Assembly: GCA_902767365.1 (NCBI GenBank)
Contig: CACXGX010000051.1
Coordinates: 1-32,273, forward strand
Length of the DNA: 32,273 bases
Direction of reading: 5' to 3'
DNA from: an uncultured Erysipelotrichaceae bacterium
Lineage (GTDB): Bacteria > Bacillota_I > Bacilli_A > RF39 > UBA660
The position numbers were made by a program, and so were the translations under genes. Under the pieces are notes generated by a model, which did no database searches, had not been told where the DNA came from, and saw only the letters and a program-made list of their open reading frames with translations. Below, piece by piece: positions 26,086 to 32,273 of the stretch (the first letter of the stretch is position 1; the number at the start of each line of letters is the position of its first letter).

Positions 26086-27990
26086 ATGTTTCAAAAAAGC
26101 ATTGATAAAAGAATTAGAATATTTTTCTTATTACTTATTTTTTTCTTATTAATAATAGTATTAAGAGTTTTTTATATTCAATTATTTGAATACGATAAAT
26201 TAAATGAAAAAGCAAATGATTTATGGAGTAGAAACCTACCTTTAAAAGCTGATAGAGGATTAATATTAGATAGAAATGGAATAGTACTTGCTAATAATAT
26301 TACAACTACAAGTTTAGTGATAATACCATCACAAATAGATGATAAAGAATATGCTTCAAAAGTACTTGCTAATATACTAAATATTTCAAAAGAACAAATG
26401 GATAAACATATTTATAAGAAAGTATCAATAGAAAGAGTTCATCCAGAAGGAAGACAATTATCTTATAAAATAGCAAATGAAATAGAAAAACTTAATTTAA
26501 AGGGAGTATATCTCGTTAAAGAATCAAAAAGATACTATCCAAATAATGAAATGTTATCACATGTTTTAGGCTATGTTGGAATAGATAATCAGGGATTATC
26601 TGGAATAGAATTACAATATGATTCTTATCTAACAGGCGTTGATGGTGCAATAAAATATTTTAGTGATGCCAAAGGAAATAGTTTAAAACTATCAGATATT
26701 TATGTTGCCCCTCAACAAGGAATGAATATATCTTTAACAATAGACTACAATATTCAAGTATCATTAGAAAGAGAATTAAATAATGTTGTATCAATGTTTA
26801 ATCCAGATATGGCTCTTGCAATAGTTATGGATCCAAATACAGGAGAAATACTAGCAATGAGTTCAAGACCAACGTATGATTCTAATAATTTTAAAAATGC
26901 AGACACAACAACAATTAATAGAAATCTTCCAATATGGGCATCATACGAGCCTGGTAGTACATTTAAAATAATAACAACTGCAGCAGCAGTAGAAGAAAAA
27001 GTAGTAGATTTATTTAAAGATACGTTCTATGATTCAGGAAGCGTAAGAATAAATGGAACAAGAATAGGATGTTGGAAACCGAGTGGTCATGGCCTTCAAA
27101 CATATTTACAAGTATTAGAAAACTCTTGTAATCCAGGATTTGTAAAATTATGTCTATTACTAGGAAAAGAAAAATTATTTTCTTATATTAATCTTTTTGG
27201 ATTTGGTAAAAAAACAGGAATCGATTTAAATGGAGAAAGCAAAGGAATAATTTTTCCTCTAGATAAAGTAGGGGATCTAGAACTTGTTACCACAGCATTT
27301 GGGCAAGGAGTAAGTGTAACACCAATACAACAAGTTTGCGCTGTAAGTGCAATTGTAAATGGAGGTAATCTATATAAACCCTATATTGTTAAAAGCATTC
27401 AAGAACCAGAAACCAATAGTATTATTAAAAGTAATGATAAAGAACTAGTAAGAAAAACAATAAGTAAAGAAACCAGTAATATAATGAAATATGCTCTTGA
27501 AAGCGTTGTTGCACGTGGAGGAGGAAAATATGCTTATATTGATGGATATAGAATTGGTGGAAAAACAGGGACAGCTCAAAAAGTAGAGAATGGTAAATAT
27601 TTAGTTAATAATTATATAATGAGTTTTATGGCAGTTGTACCTTCAAATGATCCTAAAGCAGTACTATACCTTGCAATTGATAATCCTAAAAATACAGCTC
27701 TTTTATCAGGTCATACAACAGCTCCAATTGCTAGAAAAATATTATTAGACATTATCGATAGTTTACAAATAAAAAAACAACCAAACGGAATAGAAAAGGA
27801 AAGACAATGGGATGATATAAAATATATGGAAGTACCAAACTTAATTGGTATGAGTATAAAAGAAGCTATTAATAAAGCATATCCTTTAGAAATTGATATA
27901 ACTGGTAATGGAGATGTAATTATAGAACAATCTCCAAATCCATACGAAAAAATAGATATAAATAGTAAAATAAGAGTATTATTAGAATAA
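26086..27990 (+). CDS. Class B penicillin-binding protein with one PASTA domain (SpoVD/PBP2 type)
   Basis: A 634-residue peptidoglycan transpeptidase. One N-terminal membrane segment (about 10-32) is followed by the dimerization domain (DRGLILDRNG near 57, and GYVGIDNQGLSGIE) and the transpeptidase domain with S291-T-F-K294, S347-C-N and K493-T-G-T. A single PASTA domain (VPNLIGMSIKEAINKAYP) ends the protein from about residue 580. Size and PASTA resemble B. subtilis SpoVD (about 645 residues), and mraY and ftsW follow, as in a dcw cluster. ftsL, mraW and mur genes are not adjacent. GGTGATAAA precedes the ATG. A TATAAT at 26055-26060 could be its -10. Confidence 0.93.
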   Translation: MFQKSIDKRIRIFFLLLIFFLLIIVLRVFYIQLFEYDKLNEKANDLWSRNLPLKADRGLILDRNGIVLANNITTTSLVIIPSQIDDKEYASKVLANILNISKEQMDKHIYKKVSIERVHPEGRQLSYKIANEIEKLNLKGVYLVKESKRYYPNNEMLSHVLGYVGIDNQGLSGIELQYDSYLTGVDGAIKYFSDAKGNSLKLSDIYVAPQQGMNISLTIDYNIQVSLERELNNVVSMFNPDMALAIVMDPNTGEILAMSSRPTYDSNNFKNADTTTINRNLPIWASYEPGSTFKIITTAAAVEEKVVDLFKDTFYDSGSVRINGTRIGCWKPSGHGLQTYLQVLENSCNPGFVKLCLLLGKEKLFSYINLFGFGKKTGIDLNGESKGIIFPLDKVGDLELVTTAFGQGVSVTPIQQVCAVSAIVNGGNLYKPYIVKSIQEPETNSIIKSNDKELVRKTISKETSNIMKYALESVVARGGGKYAYIDGYRIGGKTGTAQKVENGKYLVNNYIMSFMAVVPSNDPKAVLYLAIDNPKNTALLSGHTTAPIARKILLDIIDSLQIKKQPNGIEKERQWDDIKYMEVPNLIGMSIKEAINKAYPLEIDITGNGDVIIEQSPNPYEKIDINSKIRVLLE

Positions 27991-28306: not shown

Positions 28307-29293
28307 ATGGGAATATTATTACTTACAAAATCTGTTTTTGCAATAATGATAGGTTTTTTAGCAGCAATTATTTTAGGACTAATTTTAATTCCTATATTAA
28401 GAAGGAAAAAAATTGGACAAAGAATTAGTATATTTGTTGGAGATAATCATAAAAAGAAAGAAGGAACTCCTACAATGGGAGGACTTATTTTTGTTATTCC
28501 AACGGTACTGGCAACGATTGCCTTACTTTTAACAAATAAATTAGAACTGACTCCTAATTTGGTAATTATCTTATTTGTTTTTGTTGGTTATTCATTTATT
28601 GGATTTCTCGATGATTTTTTATCAATAAAAAAGAATAATAATGAAGGCTTAACAACTTTTTCAAAATTGTTTTTACAACTAATTATTGCTTTAGTATTCT
28701 TTTATTTATATATGGATAAAGGTGGAGAAACAGCTCTTATTTCTACAACATTAGGAATAAATATAGAAATGGGATGGTTTTATGGAGTATTTTTGTTATT
28801 CATCTTAGTAGGAGCTTCTAATGCTGTCAATCTAACAGATGGTCTTGATGGTTTAGCAGGAGGATTATCTGCTATATCATTTATTGCTTTTGGATTGATA
28901 TCAATTGCTGTAGGTTTTGAAGAAATTGGCTTATTTACTTTTATTTTAGTTGGATCATTAATGGGATTTTTAATATTTAATACACATCCTGCAAAAGTAT
29001 TTATGGGAGATACTGGTTCTCTTGCTCTAGGAGCAGTAATGGCCGCAATTGCTATATTAACACATAGAGAAATAACTTTATTAGTGGTAGCAAGTATATT
29101 TGTAGTAGAAACATTAAGTGTAATAATTCAAGTATTATGGGTATTCTTATTTCATAAAAAATTATTTTTAATGACACCACTTCATCATCATTTTGAAAAA
29201 TTAGGATGGTGTGAAACAGATATAGTAAAATTATTTTGGGTTATTGGTTTAATATTAACGATGGCCGGAATATACTTTGGTGTATGGTTATAA
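28307..29293 (+). CDS. mraY: Phospho-N-acetylmuramoyl-pentapeptide transferase
   Basis: Transfers phospho-MurNAc-pentapeptide from UDP to undecaprenyl phosphate, making lipid I on the inner face of the membrane. At 328 residues it has the normal length with about ten membrane helices. Signatures: GTPTMGGLIF (53-62), the paired aspartates D102-D103 in FLDDF, NLTDGLDG (175-182), FMGDTGS (232-238) and PLHHHFE (291-297). All catalytic residues are present. GAGGTGA precedes the ATG. Its product is used downstream by the FtsW and PBP pair encoded on either side, which supports the dcw reading of this region. Confidence 0.96.
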   Translation: MGILLLTKSVFAIMIGFLAAIILGLILIPILRRKKIGQRISIFVGDNHKKKEGTPTMGGLIFVIPTVLATIALLLTNKLELTPNLVIILFVFVGYSFIGFLDDFLSIKKNNNEGLTTFSKLFLQLIIALVFFYLYMDKGGETALISTTLGINIEMGWFYGVFLLFILVGASNAVNLTDGLDGLAGGLSAISFIAFGLISIAVGFEEIGLFTFILVGSLMGFLIFNTHPAKVFMGDTGSLALGAVMAAIAILTHREITLLVVASIFVVETLSVIIQVLWVFLFHKKLFLMTPLHHHFEKLGWCETDIVKLFWVIGLILTMAGIYFGVWL

Positions 29294-29347: not shown

Positions 29348-30091
29348 ATGAACAAAAAATATGGAATATATTTATTTATTACTTCACTACTTTTAATAAT
29401 ATTTGGAATAATTATGATATATTCTTCATCTAGTATATGGGCAAATTATAAATTTGGAGATTCTTTTAAATATGTTAAACATCAGGTCTTCTTTTTTTTA
29501 ATTGGAATAATACTAGTTTTAATTTTAAATAAAATAAATTCAAAATTTTACTATGAAAAATCAACATTCATTTTTATCGTATGTATTGTTTTATTATTAC
29601 TAGTACTCATACCTGGAATAGGTAGTGTAAGAAATGGAAGTAGAAGCTGGTTTGGAATTGGTTCTTTTGGCATCCAACCAAGTGAATTTGCAAAAATTGG
29701 CCTAATAATAATTACAAGCAAATATTTATCTAAAGCAAATAATAATACAAAAAATATAAAAGAAGTATATCCTATACTTTTTATTATGTTATTTGTTTTC
29801 GCCTTAATTATGCTTCAACCAGATTTTGGAACTGGTATGATAATTGTATTAAGTATACTTGCTATGCTTTATATTTCAGGTGTTAATTTAAAATTTTTTA
29901 TTATATTAGGACTATTAGGAACATTAGGAATTATTGTCTTAATAATAATTGCACCATATAGATTAGCAAGAATAACATCTTTTTTAGATCCGTGGACTGA
30001 TCCACTTGGAACAGGATTTCAAATTATTCAATCTTTATATGCAATAGGGCCAGGTGGCTTTTTTATTTTAGGATATAAATCTCAAAAATAG
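29348..30091 (+). CDS. ftsW: FtsW/RodA/SpoVE SEDS protein, 5' fragment cut off by an insertion
   Basis: SEDS proteins polymerise lipid II into glycan strands at the septum. The 247 residues match the family from the start through NGSRSW (96-101), QPSEFAK (110-116), LQPDFGTG (156-163), SFLDPWTDP (211-219) and IIQSLYAIGPGGFF (226-239). The frame then gives eight unrelated-looking residues and stops. A full protein has about 370-400 residues. The missing part starts just before the QK...LPEPHTDFIF loop, which holds the catalytic aspartate (D297 in E. coli FtsW), and the last helices. I searched the following 2.1 kb in all plus-strand frames and did not find it. As it stands the product should be inactive. 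Start: ATG after AGGTGAT. Confidence 0.9.
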   Translation: MNKKYGIYLFITSLLLIIFGIIMIYSSSSIWANYKFGDSFKYVKHQVFFFLIGIILVLILNKINSKFYYEKSTFIFIVCIVLLLLVLIPGIGSVRNGSRSWFGIGSFGIQPSEFAKIGLIIITSKYLSKANNNTKNIKEVYPILFIMLFVFALIMLQPDFGTGMIIVLSILAMLYISGVNLKFFIILGLLGTLGIIVLIIIAPYRLARITSFLDPWTDPLGTGFQIIQSLYAIGPGGFFILGYKSQK

Positions 30092-30115
30092 AGAATTAAA
30101 TTCTCTTAATTTGAG
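30081..30115. repeat. Nested palindrome next to the ftsW break
   Basis: A perfect 17-bp palindrome (AGAGAATT, centre A at 30098, AATTCTCT) is flanked by CTCAAA (30081-30086) and TTTGAG (30110-30115) after 3-base mismatches on each side. It could be a recombinase or regulator binding site, or a weak terminator; the T tract after it is poor. Confidence 0.6.
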
Positions 30116-30178
30116 GTAGTTTTTCAATATTTAATTTGTTATCTTAGAATAAACGCTAGAAAGAAAGGTGGTGAAAAA

Positions 30179-30361
30179 ATGAGTTCAGATTATTATAATC
30201 ATTTTGATAAAGAAAGATTAAAAGTTTGTGTGTTACTAACTAAAAGTACAAATATAATTAAACATACATCTTATGTTGATAAAGTGCCTGAAACTTTTAA
30301 AAGAAGAGAATATATTATTGATAAAATATATGAACCTAGAAAAAGTGTTGAAATAAAATAA
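30179..30361 (+). CDS. Small basic protein of the putative element
   Basis: A 60-residue basic protein, rich in Lys, Arg and Tyr, with no membrane segment and no motif I recognise. It has a good Shine-Dalgarno (AAAGGTGG) and is followed by the strongest terminator of the region, so it is a real monocistronic gene rather than a chance frame. It is the first gene inside the proposed element, about 115 bases from the ftsW break. Small charged proteins in that place are sometimes excision factors of serine integrases, but no homology supports this here. Confidence 0.6.
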   Translation: MSSDYYNHFDKERLKVCVLLTKSTNIIKHTSYVDKVPETFKRREYIIDKIYEPRKSVEIK

Positions 30362-30383
30362 TTTCAGCACTTTTATTTTTTAA
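30343..30383 (+). terminator. Strong terminator after the 60-residue protein gene
   Basis: A 14-bp stem (30343-30356 with 30363-30376, one G-U pair) closes the loop AAAATA and is followed by a T-rich run to 30383. Its left arm is the end of the coding sequence. Confidence 0.88.
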
Positions 30384-30460
30384 AGGTATGCTAAAAGTTA
30401 ACAAAAACATAGAATAACCTCAAAAGTAGTATATTAAAATAATTAAAGAATGGTGAATTT

Positions 30461-31147
30461 ATGAGCAGTAGAACAAATTTAAAGGATATGGGTAAACATA
30501 TTGCTGAATTAAGAAAAGCAAAAGGATATACCCAAAAAGAACTAAGTGAATTATTGGATGTCAGTGATAAGACAATATCTAAGTGGGAATGTGGTGACAT
30601 AGCACCAGACATTACAATTCTACAATTATTAGCAAAAGAACTAAATACAACAATAGAAGATATTTTATGTGCTGGAATGGTTAATAAAGAAGAAAAAAAT
30701 AAAAGTATCAATAATAAAAAGAAATTAATTAAAGAAGTAATAATATGTATTTTATTAATTTTATCAACAATAATATTCATTATTAATATTGAAGGATATT
30801 ACAAATGGGATGTAACAAGATTAAGAAATAATAAGGAAGTGTTAATAGATGGTTATTTAATTACTAATAAAAAAGAATCGAAAATAATTATTCAAAAGTT
30901 ATTAATAACTAATTCAAATATAGGTTATGAAACTCAAAAAGAAATAGAAGAATATAGAATAATTATATATAATGAAGAAGAAGCTATTTATTCAAAAACA
31001 TTAAAAAATGATATCAATAATGAAATAATAGAAAAAGAAAATATAATAATAGACAATTTAAAAAGGATAAATAAAAAAGACTTAAAAATAAAAATTGAAC
31101 TAAAGAATAATAAACAAACAAAAATGTTATATAAAATAGAATTCTAA
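30461..31147 (+). CDS. Membrane-tethered XRE-family transcription regulator
   Basis: A 228-residue protein. Residues about 12-66 are an XRE/HTH_3 DNA-binding domain (IAELRKAKGYTQKELSELL, then VSDKTISKWECG, the recognition helix). A single membrane segment spans about 91-110, and the C-terminal 115 residues, rich in Lys, Ile and Glu, should lie outside. Such one-piece membrane regulators sense an outside signal and act on nearby genes; the secreted-protein gene just downstream is the obvious candidate target. Start: ATG with GGTGA upstream. One coding line (30961-31020) is only 15 percent G+C by hand count, far below the next gene. Confidence 0.85.
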   Translation: MSSRTNLKDMGKHIAELRKAKGYTQKELSELLDVSDKTISKWECGDIAPDITILQLLAKELNTTIEDILCAGMVNKEEKNKSINNKKKLIKEVIICILLILSTIIFIINIEGYYKWDVTRLRNNKEVLIDGYLITNKKESKIIIQKLLITNSNIGYETQKEIEEYRIIIYNEEEAIYSKTLKNDINNEIIEKENIIIDNLKRINKKDLKIKIELKNNKQTKMLYKIEF

Positions 31148-31179
31148 ATCTAAATATTTGAGAATAGAGTTATTCTATG

Positions 31180-31211
31180 ATAAAGCACTTTAATTTGCTT
31201 TATTTTTTTTT
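31180..31211 (+). terminator. Terminator after the XRE gene
   Basis: ATAAAGCA (31180-31187) pairs with TGCTTTAT (31196-31203), loop of 8, then Ts. A small hairpin, AGAATA with TATTCT (31161-31176), precedes it. Confidence 0.8.
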
Positions 31212-31235
31212 AAAATAAAATTGAAAGGAGGAAAT

Positions 31236-32024
31236 ATGAAGAAAACAATAATTGGATTATTTTTACTACTATCTTTATTAATGATTACAAATATAACAAA
31301 AGTAAAAGCTTTAGAAGGTGATGATGAATTTACACCAGTTTCAGAAACTACAAAATATTATAAGACAATAACACAATATAATAATGGAAATCATTATAGC
31401 CCTGATAGTCTTGAACCAGTATCAACTCAAACAATAGAAATAACTGAAGCAGAATATTTAAATGTAGGAACAACACCAGAAGTATATTCACCAAATCTTT
31501 TTACAACTGTAGAAACAGCATATAAAAAGATGACAACTTCTATTGAAACAAACGGAAGTACTTATCGTTATAAAAACGTTTTGATATGGAAAAACTTTCC
31601 ATCCGTTCGAAGTAACGATATAATTGGTATTGGCTTTTTTGGATCAGTTCAACCAGTAGCAAATACCAGAACTTTTGAATTGGTTTATTGTAGAAATTCA
31701 AATGGGTGTCACGCAACTTCTGCTATGGCTGTAAAACAAACATTTACATATGGATCAAGTGCAGTCTATAGTCTTCCAAGTTTCACTGATCTTATTTCGT
31801 TAAAAGCGACATATTATTTTGATGTTTCAAAGACAAATAGTAGTCTAACAATCGTTCATCAAGGTGCATTTGGAGACTATTCTCATGCTATTACTTCTGT
31901 TACACCACTTCAAGCTATTAATCATGAGGTTGTACAAAATGCAGGGATTTATTTAGATGATAGTATTGTTGACAAGTATGATGCAATCGATGAAGCTGAT
32001 GTCCATTGGTATGGTAGTTGGTAA
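31236..32024 (+). CDS. Secreted protein of unknown function, element cargo
   Basis: A 262-residue protein with a classical signal peptide (basic start, hydrophobic core at about 5-21, likely cleavage after KVKA near residue 25) and no anchor, so it should be released. The mature part is rich in Ser, Thr and Tyr and looks like beta structure; two cysteines in YCRNSNGCH (about 153-162) could form a disulfide, and it ends in WYGSW. I do not recognise a named family. ATG 31236 after AAAGGAGG is preferred over the in-frame TTG 31221. Two lines counted by hand (31561-31620 and 31681-31740) are 32 and 37 percent G+C against 15-20 in neighbours, which suggests separate ancestry. Confidence 0.75.
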   Translation: MKKTIIGLFLLLSLLMITNITKVKALEGDDEFTPVSETTKYYKTITQYNNGNHYSPDSLEPVSTQTIEITEAEYLNVGTTPEVYSPNLFTTVETAYKKMTTSIETNGSTYRYKNVLIWKNFPSVRSNDIIGIGFFGSVQPVANTRTFELVYCRNSNGCHATSAMAVKQTFTYGSSAVYSLPSFTDLISLKATYYFDVSKTNSSLTIVHQGAFGDYSHAITSVTPLQAINHEVVQNAGIYLDDSIVDKYDAIDEADVHWYGSW

Positions 32025-32044
32025 TAATTTAAAGTAATCATAAT

Positions 32045-32081
32045 AAACCTCTAATAATAAATATTATTAGGAGGTTTTTTT
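32045..32081 (+). terminator. Terminator-like hairpin holding the recombinase Shine-Dalgarno
   Basis: A 15-bp stem (32045-32059 with 32062-32077, one bulged G at 32070) and a run of seven Ts (32075-32081). The descending arm contains AGGAGG (32069-32074), the ribosome binding site of the recombinase, and the T tract is the spacer before its ATG. So the same element can stop transcription and hide the start site. Confidence 0.75.
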
Positions 32082-32273
32082 ATGCAACAAAATAGTAATT
32101 ATTATGCAGGGTTATATATAAGATTATCAAAAGAAGATGAAAATAAAGATATTATAGATAATAGTGAAAGTGTTGAAAATCAAAAACAATTATTACTTAA
32201 ATATATACGTGAGAATAATTATAATTTATTTGATATTTATATAGATGATGGATATACTGGGACTAATTTTAAT
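32082..32273 (+). CDS. Serine recombinase (resolvase/invertase family), N-terminal part
   Basis: The first 64 residues of a site-specific serine recombinase, cut by the window end. AGLYIRLSKED (9-19) holds the conserved R14 and the nucleophile S16, which attacks DNA and forms a phosphoserine link; SESVENQKQLLLKYI and DDGYTGTNF are the next blocks of the resolvase domain. The sequence style (LSKEDE..., SESVENQ) is that of the large recombinases of Bacillota conjugative and mobilizable elements such as TndX/TnpX relatives. The length of the protein, and so the large-recombinase call, cannot be confirmed here. The start lies 7 bases after AGGAGG. Confidence 0.93.
   Translation, partial: MQQNSNYYAGLYIRLSKEDENKDIIDNSESVENQKQLLLKYIRENNYNLFDIYIDDGYTGTNFN

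Follow-up and report, generated by a model that had tools for sequence, protein, structure and literature searches.

A putative sporulation gene-intervening element inside spoVE of an uncultured Erysipelotrichaceae bacterium and its relatives

What becomes of a SEDS gene that breaks off in mid-sequence and is followed, on the same strand, by the genes of a serine-recombinase element? The window analysed here, a stretch of 32,273 nucleotides from an uncultured Erysipelotrichaceae bacterium, ends in such an arrangement and, as it corresponds to contig C51 in full, stops before the element does. The ORF at 29348-30091 shows SEDS likeness up to about residue 239, followed by eight unrelated residues and a stop. 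This shape, already described in the initial annotation, was found again in six further genomes with the same junction and gene order. Which gene has been cut? Where is the rest of it? And would the cell ever put it together again?

The interrupted gene and its neighbourhood

The locus comprises the following genes:

26086..27990, + strand: spoVD, class B PBP with PASTA domain (TIGR02214, 695 bits, cut-off 688)
28307..29293, + strand: mraY (TIGR00445, 310 bits, above cut-off)
29348..30055, + strand: 5' part of spoVE, 236 codons, up to IGPG (top NCBIfam model TIGR02615 spoVE, 244 bits)

The split gene had been called ftsW, but the SpoVE model scores best. Within NCBIfam, the fragment reaches 244 bits with SpoVE versus 228 with FtsW, and an intact relative 429 versus 395, although these 429 bits, with SpoVE as the best model, fall just below the curated cut-off of 448.8. 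The first half is 68-75% identical to its relatives, and the gene order is spoVD-mraY-spoVE, so that the locus can be recognised by its upstream neighbour spoVD, in which the PASTA domain was found. Sporulating Bacilli have spoVE as the SEDS gene of their dcw cluster and encode ftsW separately, at another place in the genome (PMC10693644). Model score and the spoVD-mraY neighbourhood favour the spoVE of the dcw cluster over ftsW as the cut gene. SpoVE pairs with SpoVD, is sporulation-specific in B. subtilis and is not needed for growth in C. difficile (PMC10693644), and spoVE, spoVD and spoIVA are, in B. subtilis, mother-cell sigma-E genes required for cortex formation (PMC517825). By this assignment, the element interrupts the reading frame of a sporulation gene of the mother cell, whose expression in this genus we infer.

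The claim that an essential division gene has been broken does not survive this assignment. A search of the window's genome for other SEDS genes, as the initial annotation had suggested, yielded two complete ones, one FtsW-like (C20, with FtsW as its best-scoring model) and one RodA-like (C56), which rules out that the interrupted gene is a dcw-encoded or sole division FtsW. Since the gene is spoVE and two other SEDS genes are complete, the essential-gene puzzle disappears. For the same reason, the two possibilities originally set against each other, namely another SEDS protein for division or a gene rebuilt by excision, can each be retained, but not as exclusive alternatives, and would be true together.

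The element, its ends and the missing half

Behind the break, the window contains:

30053..30055, + strand: attL core GGT (core shared by attL and attR in six relatives, and centre of the palindrome)
30056..32273, + strand: left part of the spoVE-intervening element, cut by the contig end
30080..30115, no strand assigned: TCTCAA/TTGAGA-type repeats behind the left end (sequence comparison; in most of the elements)
30179..30361, + strand: small ORF of 60 aa with a strong ribosome site (counterpart in relatives)
30461..31147, + strand: XRE-type HTH regulator with a membrane segment (Pfam HTH_3, 56 bits; same place in all seven elements)
31236..32024, + strand: predicted secreted protein (alignment A1)
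32082..32273, + strand: serine recombinase, first 64 aa (PF00239, 25.5 bits; rest lost at the contig end)

The regulator, the secreted protein and the serine recombinase are as first described, but the 60-aa ORF at 30179-30361 had been missed. All seven elements follow one order, from the left end through the small ORF, the XRE membrane regulator, the secreted protein and the serine recombinase to the right end, and in five relatives they measure 3.39-3.67 kb. An ORF of 47-60 aa with a ribosome site stands at the same place in all seven (clearly so in six), with weak likeness among the copies; that of the window has no PHROG match, and it may be regarded as a candidate for the recombination directionality factor. 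The XRE membrane regulator probably controls the element, and the TCTCAA/TTGAGA-type repeats constitute a possible operator. No match to the secreted protein was obtained in Pfam, NCBIfam or PHROG, its structure model is beta-rich and of low confidence with weak fold matches, the viral contigs searched hold no relative of it, and the named genomes in which its family occurs are uncultured Bacillota MAGs. A full-length homologue of the recombinase contains Resolvase, Recombinase and Zn-ribbon domains; the match to a PHROG integrase reaches 347 bits. With four ORFs only, none of which matched phage structural genes, a prophage or defective prophage (as skin and SPbeta are) was rejected. Sigma-E or sigma-K promoters were not recognised in the element, whose AT-rich 5' regions align too poorly.

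Among the 12 genomes of the genus, spoVE is cut at the same codon (IGPG^G) in seven. The initial annotation had suggested looking for an intact gene in related genomes: it is whole in G006 and G008, and in G004 it is whole at this site and split further on; no spoVE was found in the remaining two (G007, G009). It had also suggested reading downstream for the remainder in frame, and in six relatives the rest of spoVE indeed lies behind the recombinase, on the same contig in five of them. In these five (G011, G003, G001, G010 and G002) it runs from GGLLGMGF and follows on the same strand at a distance of 3.4-3.7 kb; that of G005 is on another contig, which overlaps the first by 141 identical bases, and begins at the same codon as in the other relatives. 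The Asp of the catalytic loop, expected in the lost part, is found there too (LPEPQTDFIF, six relatives). For the window's own genome, contig C36 has at its extreme end the codons of the last 22 SpoVE residues, and the genes behind them are those of the relatives; the rest of the recombinase and about 100 spoVE codons are unassembled. The second half in G001 is cut again near its end. As a separate observation, the spoVE tail of G000, G002, G003 and G011 has an ORF6N-type gene behind it, and past that gene G002 carries a decayed second copy of the last spoVE codons (L050:4859-4933), possibly the scar of an earlier insertion.

The comparison with relatives also refines the break point. Homology does stop near residue 239, as had been noted, but the crossover is placed in the GGT codon at 30053-30055, so that the last shared codon belongs to IGPG and the subsequent GFF is encoded by the element. 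The sites attL and attR have the common core CAGGTG (CTGGTG on both sides in G005 and G010), with GG at 30053-30054 (+) as the predicted crossover dinucleotide; the attR of the window's own genome is absent from the assembly, and its core is taken from the six relatives. The predicted attP, the joint of the circle, is an inverted repeat with its best centre at the GG of the core in six of six genomes (summed score 100, versus 33-59 at other centres), and genome by genome it beats shuffled sequences in five of the six (P 0.03 or less), G010 being the exception. A scan of viral contigs with a loose attP pattern gave many matches, all unspecific. When the flanks are joined, the frame is restored in the five relatives with both junctions on one contig, reading IGPGGLLGMGF or close variants, which matches unsplit relatives. 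Site-specific insertion by a serine-recombinase element, as originally proposed, is therefore well supported.

Excision during sporulation and its alternatives

The likely explanation, in which we place considerable though not full confidence, is that spoVE hosts a skin/gin-type sporulation gene-intervening element, which would be excised in the mother cell; rebuilding as in the skin elements had been proposed from the start and, with the missing half in frame behind the recombinase in six relatives, it remains the best account. During growth, the element would be silent and spoVE split without harm to the cell, since division and elongation would be in the charge of other SEDS proteins. During sporulation, the serine recombinase, turned to excision by a directionality factor (for which the 47-60 aa ORF is the candidate), would join attL and attR at the GG of CAGGTG and release the element as a circle; full-length SpoVE would then be made in the mother cell and act with SpoVD on the spore peptidoglycan, while the forespore chromosome would stay split. 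We infer the excision as well as its timing, the directionality factor and the role of the regulator. Thus, the switch for wall synthesis suggested initially stands as a proposal, but would act on the wall of the spore and not on growth.

Are these bacteria able to form spores at all? The window's genome encodes SigK (above the NF004471 cut-off), SigE-like, SigG-like and SpoIIGA-like proteins and SpoIVA, and both SpoIVA and SigK are kept across nearly the whole genus, so that spore formation is predicted for these uncultured bacteria, from their genes only. A split sigK was considered and rejected, the gene being whole in all twelve genomes.

The closest described case is gin in the gerE gene of Bacillus cereus ATCC10987 (PMC5595907). 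Both gin and the spoVE element are non-phage elements with a serine recombinase inside a mother-cell sporulation gene, and each has a short shared core, an imperfect inverted repeat at the joint and a frame that excision restores in gerE and would restore in spoVE (PMC5595907). However, gin measures 28.6 kb and has three serine recombinases, and both its factor (GirX) and its excision in sporulation are proven (PMC5595907), whereas the spoVE element has 3.4-3.7 kb, one recombinase, another target gene and predicted excision. In sigK, skin of Bacillus subtilis and skinCd of Clostridioides difficile likewise split a mother-cell gene that is rebuilt by the element's serine recombinase, and leave the forespore genome alone; they are prophage-like and rebuild a sigma factor (PMC5025042, PMC5595907), unlike the spoVE element, which lacks phage structural genes and whose excision would restore a SEDS glycosyltransferase. 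Mother-cell genes also harbour SPbeta (spsM), vfbin (spoVFB) and vrin (spoVR), but these are phages or remnants of phages; SPbeta excises precisely during sporulation and has a separate directionality factor (PMC4191935). The named NCBIfam model closest to the recombinase is XisF of the fdxN element of heterocyst cyanobacteria (132 bits, cut-off 375), which is likewise concerned with developmental excision, although in a different organism and development. In the limited collection of literature searched, there was no report of a split spoVE or spoIVA, and neither is among the targets named there. Known interruptions of spore genes rebuild sigma factors, regulators, coat or polysaccharide genes; the gene rebuilt here would encode a peptidoglycan glycosyltransferase.

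A first alternative is that a selfish serine-recombinase element inactivated spoVE, that SpoVE (or sporulation altogether) was abandoned, and that the two halves are relics. It gains some weight from the second spoVE site described below, where mobile, ICE-like elements also insert, their ends being identical across five genera, and from a related element that appears to split a transporter gene (L149), but the split relatives have kept both halves whole and conserved, apart from the renewed cut in G001. The second halves of G005 and G010 are 95% identical, with a dN of 0.048 and a saturated dS, and the comparison indicates that the second half of spoVE is under purifying selection while split, with dS near saturation. 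Furthermore, the split genomes group as a single clade, with moderate support (78/75), in a phylogeny built from the first half, and the element proteins differ more between species than SpoVE does, the closest pair being the same for host and element. The insertion looks, from these sequences, old and vertically inherited, with moderate support for a single origin, and older than the split clade. Together with the retention of SpoIVA and SigK nearly throughout the genus, this makes decay to relics unlikely. If the split state is inherited through the genus as it looks, spore formation there may include programmed DNA excision as a fixed step.

Rated lower than the relics is a reversible excision and re-integration in growing cells, a phase switch of wall synthesis unlinked to spore formation. 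In its favour, the att sites have been preserved, and a signal other than sporulation could conceivably be sensed by the XRE regulator. Nonetheless, SpoVE is the partner of SpoVD, with its sporulation-specific role in B. subtilis and its dispensability for C. difficile growth (PMC10693644), and the close precedents are all linked to sporulation. No rejoined spoVE or excised joint was found in the assemblies of the split genomes of the genus, which would be expected if excision is confined to the mother cell, though it is not evidence for excision.

Could SpoVE instead consist of two separately translated pieces that assemble in the membrane, so that the element need never leave? Both halves are conserved, and in G003 an ATG overlaps the recombinase stop (ATGA) and could permit coupled translation. 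However, no conserved start codon or ribosome site precedes the second half in the five species compared, which makes separate translation unlikely; in addition, GGL(L/I/M)G before the first common ATG is kept through synonymous changes, and the attL and attR cores are kept identical. Of these three alternatives, this one seems the least probable.

An assembly or binning artefact deserves hardly any credence. The MAG is fragmented (134 contigs, 74% complete), and the window, one of its contigs, ends inside the recombinase, but six other genomes, independently assembled, share the junction and gene order, and in five of them a single contig carries the downstream half as well. Absence of the remainder, a short gene common to the relatives and an assembly error, the outcomes that the initial annotation had foreseen as speaking against it, are all contradicted by the downstream halves of the relatives.

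The preferred reading, mother-cell excision of the element, has practical consequences. Annotation pipelines would score spoVE or spoIVA as missing and the bacteria as non-sporulating. Moreover, a compact four-gene element with clear att sites would be a handy system for studying how a mobile element turns into a developmental switch.

Further insertion sites in spore genes and related elements

A second site in spoVE, directly after GTNACNGG (VTG), is occupied in 13 other genera (sequence-checked), as well as in G004 and G001. The occupants are of several kinds, one of which has identical ends in five genera. The G004 insert, of 46,863 bases, resembles a conjugation-type element when its ORFs are judged by eye; it contains a serine recombinase, behind which the spoVE tail is preserved in frame at the far end. 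The loci concerned are L098, L169 and L170 (G004), L152-L164, and L047 (G001).

In several genera, the spoIVA gene is split in turn by a different serine-recombinase element. The break lies at CPW^YDE in G008 and G136, with the matching arms GTGATACCC and GGGTATCAC. A serine recombinase stands directly before the second half of spoIVA in G077, G118, G071 and G136, and contigs of G004 and G013 end exactly at the CPW^YDE point. The corresponding loci are L131 and L132 (G008), L171 and L172 (G136), L174 (G077), L176 (G118) and L178 (G071), plus the contig-end loci L133 (G004), L134 and L135 (G013). Where enough of the spoIVA element is assembled, an ORF of 60-73 aa is seen just before the recombinase.

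Are the mother-cell spore genes of these uncultured gut Bacilli standing docking sites for mobile DNA? In such a scenario, whose chances we judge to be even, spoVE would offer two sites and spoIVA one to at least three kinds of serine-recombinase elements, ranging from a domesticated remnant of 3.5 kb to a conjugative type of 47 kb, and the completion of the spore would need their excision. If this were true, sporulation would require one excision or more in almost all members of the window's genus, and two in the same gene in G001.

Relatives of the element's parts also occur elsewhere. At L149:3543-10586, an ABC-transporter substrate-binding gene appears to be interrupted by an element that likewise combines an XRE regulator, a secreted protein and a serine recombinase; as this is a non-sporulation gene, the element family is not confined to spore genes. 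The pair of XRE membrane regulator and secreted protein (30461-32024 in the window) recurs outside the spoVE element in related Bacilli (L095, L096, L097, L147, L148 and L151). Within the window's own genome, contig C128 has a serine recombinase and two further genes between an ABC permease gene and a seemingly end-shortened ATPase gene (L104:3104-7999), and contig C105 has three tandem serine recombinase genes (518, 537 and 595 aa) among polysaccharide-type genes (L102:5249-10196).
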